DNA of 64,000 bases from Natrinema hispanicum (GTDB lineage Archaea > Halobacteriota > Halobacteria > Halobacteriales > Natrialbaceae), in contig NZ_FOIC01000008.1 in NCBI RefSeq assembly GCF_900111485.1, forward strand, positions 62,001 to 126,000, read 5' to 3'. Positions 28,336 to 34,157 of the stretch are shown here, piece after piece (position 1 is the stretch's first letter; every line of letters begins with the position of its first letter). The position numbers were made by a program, and so were the translations under genes. Under the pieces are notes generated by a model. It was not told the DNA's origin, made no database searches, and saw only the letters and a list, made by a program, of their open reading frames with translations.

Positions 28336-30297
28336 TTAGTCGTCGTCGGCTTCGGTCTGTGCCTGTCGACGCTGTGCGCGTTCGATGAACTCCTGTGGGA
28401 GTTCGTCGATCTCGCCGGCTTGCACCCCCCAGAGGTGTGAGTAAAGCCCGTCGTTTGTGAGCAACTCCTCGTGTGTCCCGCGTTCGACGATCTCACCGCC
28501 TTCGAGGACGAGGATCCCGTCTGCGTCCTTGATCGTCGAGAGTCGGTGCGCGATGGCGAACGTGGTTCGATCTTCCGCGAGCTCGTCGATCGACCGCTGG
28601 ATGAGCATCTCGGTCTCGGTGTCGACGTCGCTGGTCGCCTCGTCTAACACGAGGATCGCGGGATCTCTGAGGATCGCACGGGCGATCGAGAGGCGCTGGC
28701 GCTGCCCGCCGGAGAGCTTGACGCCGCGTTCGCCGACCTCCGTATCGTAGCCGTCGGGTAAGTTCTGGATGAACTCGTGGGCTTCGGCCATTTTTGCGGC
28801 CTCAATCACAGCCTCGCGATCGGCGTCAAAGGTACCGTATTTGATGTTCTCTGCGACGCTGCCATAGAAGAGGAAGGTGTCCTGGCTGACGTAGCCGATC
28901 GATTCGCGAAGACTCCGGAGGGTGACGTCTTGGATGTTCTGGCCGTCGATCCGGATCTCGCCCTCGTCGACATCGTACATCCGCAAGAGGAGCTTGAGGA
29001 CGGTTGACTTGCCGGCACCGGTCGGCCCGACCAGCGCGAGCGTTTCCCCGCCCTCGACACTAAAGTCGATGTTCTCGAGGATCGGCTCTGTCGACTCCGA
29101 CGTCTGGGTCTCGCGATCGTCATAACTAAACGACACCTCGTTGTACTCGACGCGGCCGTCGGTCACGGTGAGGTCGGGCGCGTCGGGCTCTTCATCGACC
29201 CGGTTCGGTTCGTCCATCAATCCGAAGATGCGCGCACTCGAAGCGCGAGCGCGCTGATACATATTGATTATTTGACCGAATTGCGCCATTGGCCAAATAA
29301 ACCGCTGCGTATAGAGAATGAAGACGACGAACATCCCGGTACTGAGCTCACCCGAGAACGGACCCGGTGGGCCCGAGATGACCCAGAGGCCGCCGACGAG
29401 AAATGTGATGACGAAGCCGATCCCCGCGAGCACGCGCAGTCCGGGGAAAAACTTGATCCGCGTCCGAATCGCCCCCCAGTTGGCGTCGAAGTACTCCTGA
29501 GAAACGTCCTCGACACGGTCGGATTCGTAGGACTCGGTCGTACTGGATTTGATCACCTGAATCCCGCCGAGGTTGTTCTCGAGCCGGGAGTTGACCGTGC
29601 CGACGGTCGAGCGCACCTCGGCGTACTTCGGCTGGATGGTCTGGATGAACAGATACGTGAAGCCGGCGATCAGCGGTACCGGCAGCAAGGCGACCAGCGC
29701 GAGCTGCCAGTTAATCGCCAGTAGTAAGCCGCCGATACCCACCACCATCACGAGCAGCCGAAACAGGGAGTTCATCCCGTCGTTCAAGAATTTCTCGAGG
29801 CGGTTGACGTCGTTCGAGAGGATCGACATCATCTCGCCGGTCTGTTTGTCGGCAAAAAAGCCCATATCCAGGCGCTGCATCTCGTCGTAGGTGTCGGTCC
29901 GGATGTCGTGTTGGATGTTCTGGGCGAACGTGTTGAACCCCCAGTTTCGGGTCCAGTGGAAGATCGCCGAACAAAGGAAGGCACTCGCGATGATCCCGAT
30001 TGTCAACCAGAACTGGTCGACTCGTCCGGTTGGGACATACGGTTCGATGAGCCCGCCACCTACCGGAAACGCCGCTGCATATGCAATCTCTTGACGGATC
30101 ACGGCGTCGATTGCGATCCCGAGCATCAGCGGTGGCAACAGATCCAGGACTCGAGCGCCGACGCTCGCGATCACGCCGATGACCGCAGCCCCGACGTAGT
30201 TTACGCCGTACTCGAGGAACAGCCGTTTCATCGGGTTCTCGACCTCCGCCCGTTGGTCCTCGAATGGATCGTCCTCGTCTCCGTCGGGGCGATTCAT
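28336..30297 (-). CDS. ABC-type exporter, fused permease and ATPase
   Basis: A 653-residue half-transporter. Residues about 35-330 form six membrane helices of the ABC exporter type (for example NYVGAAVIGVIASVGARVLDL and LLVMVVGIGGLLLAINW). The ATPase domain has Walker A GPTGAGKST, Q-loop YVSQDTF, signature LSGGQRQR, Walker B ILVLDEATSD and the H-loop AHRLSTI. Homodimeric lipid, drug or peptide export are all possible. The start at the ATG at 30297 (MNRPDGDEDD) is preferred to one nine codons earlier. It is a single-gene unit. Confidence 0.93.
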   Translation of the reverse strand: MNRPDGDEDDPFEDQRAEVENPMKRLFLEYGVNYVGAAVIGVIASVGARVLDLLPPLMLGIAIDAVIRQEIAYAAAFPVGGGLIEPYVPTGRVDQFWLTIGIIASAFLCSAIFHWTRNWGFNTFAQNIQHDIRTDTYDEMQRLDMGFFADKQTGEMMSILSNDVNRLEKFLNDGMNSLFRLLVMVVGIGGLLLAINWQLALVALLPVPLIAGFTYLFIQTIQPKYAEVRSTVGTVNSRLENNLGGIQVIKSSTTESYESDRVEDVSQEYFDANWGAIRTRIKFFPGLRVLAGIGFVITFLVGGLWVISGPPGPFSGELSTGMFVVFILYTQRFIWPMAQFGQIINMYQRARASSARIFGLMDEPNRVDEEPDAPDLTVTDGRVEYNEVSFSYDDRETQTSESTEPILENIDFSVEGGETLALVGPTGAGKSTVLKLLLRMYDVDEGEIRIDGQNIQDVTLRSLRESIGYVSQDTFLFYGSVAENIKYGTFDADREAVIEAAKMAEAHEFIQNLPDGYDTEVGERGVKLSGGQRQRLSIARAILRDPAILVLDEATSDVDTETEMLIQRSIDELAEDRTTFAIAHRLSTIKDADGILVLEGGEIVERGTHEELLTNDGLYSHLWGVQAGEIDELPQEFIERAQRRQAQTEADDD

Positions 30298-30999: not shown

Positions 31000-31073
31000 G
31001 GGCTCGTGGTCTAGCTGGTCATGACGCGGCCTTTACAAGGCCGAGGTCGGTGGTTCGAACCCGCCCGAGCCCA
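31000..31073 (+). tRNA. tRNA-Val (TAC)
   Basis: Acceptor GGGCTCG/CGAGCCC with discriminator A, D-arm TGGTCTAGCTGG, anticodon stem GGCCT/AGGCC region with loop TTTACAA (anticodon TAC), T-arm GGTTCGAAC. Its last 21 nt recur exactly at 31183-31203. Confidence 0.95.
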
Positions 31074-31076
31074 CTT

Positions 31077-31106
31077 CCTGCTGCGAGCAACGCCGCGAGC
31101 AGCAGG
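31077..31106. other. Inverted repeat directly after tRNA-Val
   Basis: CCTGCTG at 31077-31083 pairs with CAGCAGG at 31100-31106, with further partial pairing of GCGAGC-like bases inside. It starts four bases after the tRNA and may help end transcription or 3' processing. Confidence 0.45.
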
Positions 31107-31182
31107 TGTGTGATGCGAGCGGCGGTTCGAATAAGAGAAGACGCAGCGCTCGAGCGAATGCGAGAGCGACCGTCTTCGCGTC

Positions 31183-31203
31183 GTTCGAACCCGCCCGAGC
31201 CCA
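31183..31203 (+). repeat. Exact copy of the tRNA-Val 3' end
   Basis: The 21 bases at 31053-31073 (T-arm from GTTCGAAC through the discriminator) are repeated without mismatch at 31183-31203, offset 130 nt. Upstream, GGCGGTTCGAA at about 31122-31132 is an inverted copy of the T-arm, and GAAGACG/CGTCTTC pair inside, so the segment can fold into a long hairpin ending in the copied T-arm. Confidence 0.85.
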
Positions 31204-32006: not shown

Positions 32007-32080
32007 GCCGCCTTAGCTCAGACTGGGAGAGCACTCGACTGAAGATCGAGCTGTCCCCGGTTCAAATCCGGGAGGCGGCA
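32007..32080 (+). tRNA. tRNA-Phe (GAA)
   Basis: Acceptor GCCGCCT/AGGCGGC with discriminator A, D-arm TAGCTCAG, anticodon stem CTCGA/TCGAG with loop CTGAAGA (anticodon GAA), T-arm CCCGG-TTCAAAT-CCGGG. Confidence 0.96.
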
Positions 32081-32191
32081 TACTTTTGCGGCGAGCATGT
32101 TCGAGAGTCACAAATCTGCAGCCCGATTGTGATTTTTGAGCCCATTTTTCTGCGAACCAGCGAAAGAGCGGAGTGAGCATTTCTGGGCGGA

Positions 32192-32212
32192 GGTTATCCG
32201 GGAGTCGGTATC
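32192..32212 (+). repeat. Degenerate copy of the tRNA-Phe 3' end
   Basis: GGTTATCCGGGAGTCGGTAT aligns with the T-arm/acceptor end of tRNA-Phe (GGTTCAAATCCGGGAGGCGGCAT) with a three-base deletion and a few changes; the ATCCG core is offset by exactly 130 nt, the same as the tRNA-Val copy. Just upstream, AGCGAAAGAGCGGAGTGAGCA resembles the motif preceding the tRNA-His copy. Confidence 0.5.
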
Positions 32213-32346
32213 CCGAGTTTACGTAATTCTCGCTCGCAACGCGATTGCTCGGCAGACGCTATCAACGTGAAACGTACGCTCGCAGGGTGTCGCCAATCGT
32301 CGTCGCGGTCCCGTTTACAGGCGCTGGCCGCGATGCCGTGGGGACG

Positions 32347-33970: not shown

Positions 33971-33992
33971 GTCCGGGTGCGAGAATCGAACC
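33971..33992 (-). repeat. Exact copy of the tRNA-His 3' end
   Basis: The 22 bases at 34085-34106, the 3' end of tRNA-His on the minus strand, are repeated without mismatch at 33971-33992, 114 nt downstream of the tRNA. On the minus strand GCGAGATCGAACCA, about 50 nt upstream of the copy, is an inverted near-match to it, allowing a hairpin whose 3' arm is the copied T-arm; the loop contains GCGAAGTGAGCA. Confidence 0.88.
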
Positions 33993-34084
33993 ACGTCGAG
34001 ACGTGCTCACTTCGCTGCGCGCGACTCGTCTGGTTCGATCTCGCCTGCCGGCTTTTTCACTCCTCACTTCGGTCGTCGGAAAAG

Positions 34085-34157
34085 GTCCGGGTGCGAGAAT
34101 CGAACCCGCGTCTCAGCCTCCACAAGGCTGAAGGATAACCACTACCCCAACCCGGAC
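34085..34157 (-). tRNA. tRNA-His (GTG)
   Basis: On the minus strand G(-1) pairs with C73 around acceptor TCCGGGT/ACCCGGA, the His identity element; D-arm TGGGGTAGTGGTTATCC, anticodon stem CAGCC/GGCTG with loop TTGTGGA (anticodon GTG), T-arm CGGGTTCGATTCTCG. Its 3' 22 nt recur downstream. Confidence 0.95.

Follow-up and report, generated by a model that had tools for sequence, protein, structure and literature searches.

Gene-less units of about 110 bp behind tRNA genes of Halobacteria may be micro-integrative elements that rebuild tRNA 3' tails

The SNJ2-type proviruses and plasmids (SNJ2 and Halfgib1 among them), which use tyrosine integrases of the IntSNJ2 type, target the 3' end of a tRNA gene and restore the tRNA, as do the short units described here. 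They displace a tail copy of 13-14 nt, and the core of Halfgib1 is the piece that is kept in some of the units; they are, however, 11-20 kb long, carry integrase genes and have no inverted arm with core hairpin (L'-core) at the att sites inspected, whereas the units carry no gene. A NAR paper on IntSNJ2 might describe inverted repeats at such sites. Integron cassettes with attC sites share with the units a tandem arrangement in which every member terminates in an imperfect palindrome, its paired arms interrupted by a bulge and by a middle part left unpaired, and a gene-bearing unit (L178) adds to this likeness. In attC the folded palindrome keeps its structure, with its sequence free to vary. 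Integrons rely on IntI and an attI platform, whereas the units use tRNA genes as their platform and the integrases seen are of the SNJ2 type; moreover, the arms of the units follow the tRNA rather than an attC consensus, the pairing being tRNA-specific and base 60 bulged in the L' pairing in 34% of 130 units. Casposon-type target duplication goes with a Cas1 gene and element-specific terminal inverted repeats, whereas the inverted arm of the units follows the tRNA and not the element. MITEs are likewise short, gene-less and presumably moved by an enzyme encoded elsewhere, but they depend on transposases and terminal inverted repeats, while the target of the units is a tRNA tail and their borders fit a tyrosine recombinase. 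The SMR-A elements of Haloquadratum are similar in length (~110 bp), in the lack of genes, in their inverted repeats, in a preference for palindromic targets and in being haloarchaeal; in the sections of the source consulted, their mode of mobilisation is given as unknown, and they sit in IS605-type elements and make no target duplication (PMC3119063). The units, in contrast, are flanked by a duplicated tRNA tail, a distinction drawn from the description of SMR-A. The parts of the literature covered, including sections of PMC3119063, PMC8371274, PMC7911831 and PMC9668308, yielded no description of such units.

The window, a 64,000-nt stretch of Natrinema hispanicum DNA, contains two of these units. 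At the first, the 22-nt tail of tRNA-His (34085-34106) recurs base for base at 33971-33992, as the initial annotation had reported, with a maximal repeat length of 22 and a spacing of 114; the copy lies 3' of the gene on the minus strand, that is, downstream. The insert contains both GCGAGATCGAACCA, the inverted near-match reported upstream of the copy, and GCGAAGTGAGCA, the motif assigned to the loop. The features are as follows.

34084..34156, minus strand: tRNA-His(gtg), the host gene (ARAGORN, Rfam tRNA model, exact repeat)
34053..34083, minus strand: hairpin 1, with a T run (TTTT) at its start directly behind the tRNA (sequence, fold)
34031..34052, minus strand: left arm L', which imperfectly matches the reverse complement of the tRNA tail, most closely in the T-loop and T-stem
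33993..34030, minus strand: core hairpin of type a, common to units at other tRNAs (sequence comparison)
33971..33992, minus strand: right arm, an exact copy of the tRNA-His tail, the old target end (exact repeat; empty site L150)
31000..31074, plus strand: tRNA-Val(tac), host of the second unit of the window (ARAGORN)
31075..31203, plus strand: second unit, with hairpin 1, inverted arm (about 31121-31131), core and tail copy (31183-31203)

The order of a unit is tRNA tail, hairpin 1, inverted T-arm, core hairpin and tail copy, and hairpin 1 of the His unit appears terminator-like from its sequence. When folded, the His stretch yields one long hairpin, in line with the proposed hairpin ending in the T-arm copy; as single-stranded DNA it reaches a z-score against dinucleotide shuffles of -2.4 on one strand (5/200 shuffles as good) and -2.7 on the other (2/200). 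Between positions 30000 and 35000 nothing but tRNAs exceeded the Rfam threshold, and a known RNA family at the His unit was discarded.

The arrangement is strongly enriched behind tRNA genes of this genome. The Rfam model located 45 of them, of which the 44 with a definable 3' tail were searched for a match of at least 17/22 to their own tail within 500 nt downstream. Such a copy follows 11 of the 44 (His, Val(cac), Val(tac), Arg(tct), Lys(ctt), Gly(gcc), Met(cat), Ser(tga), Leu(taa) and two Asp), though for one of the two Asp genes, which opens a tandem pair, the "copy" is the tRNA-Asp gene that follows. The upstream side gave 2/44, both tandem tRNA pairs, tails swapped from other tRNAs gave 35/1876 and random 22-mers of the window 9/1500, values that rule out chance duplication; the comparison with random positions (11/44 against 9/1500) is the one that the initial annotation had named beforehand as its refuting test. 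A search of the genome with the region also located the His-type core behind tRNA-Val(cac) on another contig. The tRNA-Phe gene of the window (32007-32080) is followed by just a 15/22 tail match at about +107 (within 32081-32220), which is perhaps a decayed unit. A double hairpin within the cores of the tRNA-Val(cac) unit (L002, 1527-1590) and of the Gly(gcc) unit (L014) is a dispersed haloarchaeal repeat, matched by 41 plasmid records, none of which covers a whole unit.

The recurrence of the pattern behind several tRNAs, already suspected, extends across Halobacteria. An exact 21-base piece of core plus right arm was found in 34 stretches of a species-genome collection, with a tRNA gene directly upstream in 30; haloarchaeal titles are borne by 33, and the remaining one, titled Pirellulales (L084), contains no unit. 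The core pattern, searched without a tRNA requirement, matched 31 of the 292 genomes of the class in eight families, with none for the reversed control, and this is an undercount, as it misses N. hispanicum itself, whose cores differ at single bases. All 30 core-pattern loci that were fetched were inspected: a tRNA lies 48-232 nt upstream in 26, and by eye the other four (L223, L238, L239, L240) have a tRNA-tail remnant in place of the tRNA. Insert lengths have quartiles of 92-115 nt (141 units). In Natronorubrum bangense, the same tRNA-Val(cac) gene with its unit occurs on a plasmid (L067) and on the chromosome (L066).

Both ends of the duplication are sharply defined, one at position 53 and the other where the tRNA ends. 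Among 127 copies (at least 19/22) from 176 unique tRNA instances, identity between copy and tRNA is 0.88-1.00 over positions 53-73 and 0.76 at position 52; it does not exceed 0.41 at positions farther upstream and is 0.45 right after the tRNA. Selection by similarity favours identity inside the repeat stretch but not outside it, and the low values outside therefore indicate that the repeat stops at the tRNA end. Such an end would fit elements that must restore a working tRNA. A narrower boundary is suggested by the type-a units, in five of which (5/26) a stretch of five bases takes the place of the copy's T-loop (57-60) and 61-73 is retained, with one mismatch in all five together; the T-loop is shared as well in the other 21. 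The tRNA-derived part would thus be bordered at about 60/61, leaving 13 nt. This sole shared part of the five units appears to correspond to the att core of SNJ2-type elements (13-14 nt, from the 3' strand of the T-stem to position 73), and the attP annotated for Halfgib1, which derives from a tRNA-Arg, is the same 13-nt stretch 61-73. The majority of copies match from position 53 and are longer than this core.

The left arm is specific to the tRNA behind which it stands. Averaged over 17 tRNA types, its pairing scores 11.64 with the own tail against 9.32 +/- 0.36 when the assignment of tails is shuffled, and none of 5000 permutations was as high; the type-level comparison is the fair one, because related units share ancestry. 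The excess of own over other tRNAs' tails lies at positions 57 (0.92 against 0.44), 59 and 61-64, and weakly at 71 and 73, with none at 65-69, and this swapped-tail control led us to drop the notion of L' as a mirror of the whole acceptor. At the level of single units the signal is modest: with the arm anchored in 123 of 141 units (18 without an anchor were dropped), the own tail was strictly the best of 23 tails in 17 only, and tRNA-Phe (14 units) and tRNA-Gly (4 units) displayed no own-tail excess in this anchored test. A first version, in which a 15-nt tail was compared with the whole insert, was weak (12.7 for the own tail and 11.9 for other tRNAs, the own being best in 12/141). In one of 118 units (L208) the core is inverted between L' and the right arm, which indicates that the two arms acted as partners at least once, whatever the mechanism.

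Units come and go at one and the same site. The orthologous tRNA-His site, marked by the conserved neighbour gene P0001, was found in 118 of 121 genomes of the family; 70 loci were examined, 30 of them returned directly and 40 fetched (38 from the other 88 and two wider stretches of loci already included), and 66 sites were counted after removal of the two repeats and of two loci without a definable tail. At least one copy lies within 400 nt in 48 of the 66 sites, two or more in 9 and none in 18. The site in L150 is empty: in an alignment with the window, precisely the 114 bp of the insert are missing, and what follows its tRNA is homologous to the sequence that follows the displaced copy of the window. 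The closest relative, L149 (marker protein 99% identical), carries a unit shortened between two short repeats. Several core types occupy this His site in different relatives, although 17 of the 57 copies could not be sorted by core type.

Larger elements with integrases occur at such sites. A 6.2-kb element at tRNA-Phe (L196, with L190 as a broken relative) encodes a protein with a Phage_integrase match, to which 13 phage records are similar, the best being SNJ2 at 46% identity. Integrases of this type were identified by tblastn in L190, L016, L240, L216, L064, L075 and L005; that of N. hispanicum itself (L016, 382-1383, contig C53) is an open SNJ2-type frame that encodes 347 aa and lies close to tRNA-Ala(ggc), and the genes of L240 and L064 are closely followed by a tail remnant and a unit. 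This co-occurrence is weak evidence, since tyrosine integrases are common in haloarchaea. The gene-bearing unit of L178 is 950 bp long, 204-1154 nt behind the tRNA-His tail, and ends in L', core and tail; its metallo-beta-lactamase-fold frame lies between two tail copies and, as far as the His loci are concerned, is present in just three genomes, with a decayed end in two of these. Similar predicted lipoproteins lie between tRNA-Phe tail copies in L190 (3481-4263) and L192 (339-1082), that of L192 having no Pfam match. No L'-core was seen by eye at the attP regions of SNJ2 and Halfgib1, nor at the right end of the L196 element, which suggests that the substrate formed by the units differs from the known one. 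Phage records searched by DNA similarity contained no unit and gave no match at E 1, so a phage origin by this route was set aside. In IMG/VR, GGCGTGGTTCAAATC is present in the 59 viral-contig stretches fetched, with TTTGAA at most 130 nt upstream in just two, neither of which has the core by eye.

The initial annotation described the pattern but gave no mechanism; the present analysis adds an inverted arm that follows the host tRNA, a site lacking the insert, arrays in tandem and the correspondence with the att core of SNJ2-type elements. We propose, with about even confidence, that the units are micro-integrative elements devoid of genes, which an SNJ2-type tyrosine integrase would move in trans. 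An element of ~110 bp would insert at the 3' end of a tRNA gene, and the right half of its recombination site would copy the tRNA tail, so that the tRNA remains complete and the original tail ends up downstream. An SNJ2-type (pleolipovirus-like) integrase is suggested by the position of the borders, by the att core and by the use of tRNA tails as targets; it would most likely exchange strands at the border of T-loop and T-stem (~57-61). A 114-bp insert has no room for an integrase gene, and since the units are without genes we infer movement in trans, as we do the identity of the recombinase and the roles of the hairpins. Hairpin 1 probably restores termination behind the tRNA, L' and the core hairpin may be the element's own recombinase-binding or folding part, and repeated insertion into one tail would build tandem arrays. 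The case for mobility is a comparative one, made from empty and filled sites.

The main rival is that the units are immobile deletion relics, left when an SNJ2-type provirus or plasmid at a tRNA loses its interior and hairpin 1 at its left end is joined to L', core and tail at its right end. We consider this possible but doubtful. SNJ2-type elements do occupy the same tails, a hairpin, as judged by eye, immediately follows the att core of SNJ2, deletion does shorten units (L149), and repeat-mediated deletions that leave terminal-only elements have been described in haloarchaea, in the portion of the source consulted (PMC3119063). Random deletions, however, would not give lengths as tight as those of the 141 units, complete units occur in tandem, and no L'-core stands at the virus attP sites inspected or at the L196 element end; these three points would speak for independent elements. 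Against the proposal of mobile elements, on the other hand, stand the lack of an L'-core at the known att sites inspected, the extent of most copies beyond the 13-nt core and the absence of units from the phage records and viral-contig stretches searched; a double-stranded circle of 110 bp would also be strained. By analogy with attC, the units could instead form a cassette system of their own, in which the excised circle is single-stranded, the tail pairs with L', two hairpins cap the ends as in a dumbbell and the folded strand offers the recombinase site, with tRNA genes as docking sites and an occasional gene as cargo (L178); we regard this as unlikely.

Two further readings dispense with integration. 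Template switching, in which the copying strand turns back at hairpin 1, makes a reversed copy of the tail (L'), turns again at the core and resumes in the forward direction, would account for the succession of tail, inverted tail and tail with a hairpin at each turn, and the inverted core of L208 is in keeping with it. It is nevertheless improbable, as copying errors do not explain why, across many different tRNAs, the repeat stops where the tRNA does; one core type recurs behind many tRNAs in many genera, so the hairpins were not locally made, and the excess of complementarity is limited to 57-64 with weak spots at 71 and 73. Still harder to sustain is a role as RNA, in which the hairpin, as part of the transcribed trailer, would for instance terminate transcription or help to process or regulate the tRNA. 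A unit does lie directly 3' of a transcribed gene, folds as RNA and has a left arm complementary to the tail of its own tRNA, but its presence is patchy among close relatives and among tRNAs, the T run of hairpin 1 would probably end the transcript early, and Rfam recognises only the tRNAs at the locus.

A review of archaeal tyrosine recombinases asks, in the part consulted, whether the short att site of IntSNJ2, free of stem-loops, suffices for recombination (PMC8371274). The units offer natural variants of this site, with an exchanged T-loop and a folded partner arm, on many tRNAs. If the proposal of micro-integrative elements is true, they would be among the smallest integrating elements, dependent on integrases of the viral type and remaking tRNA tails again and again across Halobacteria.
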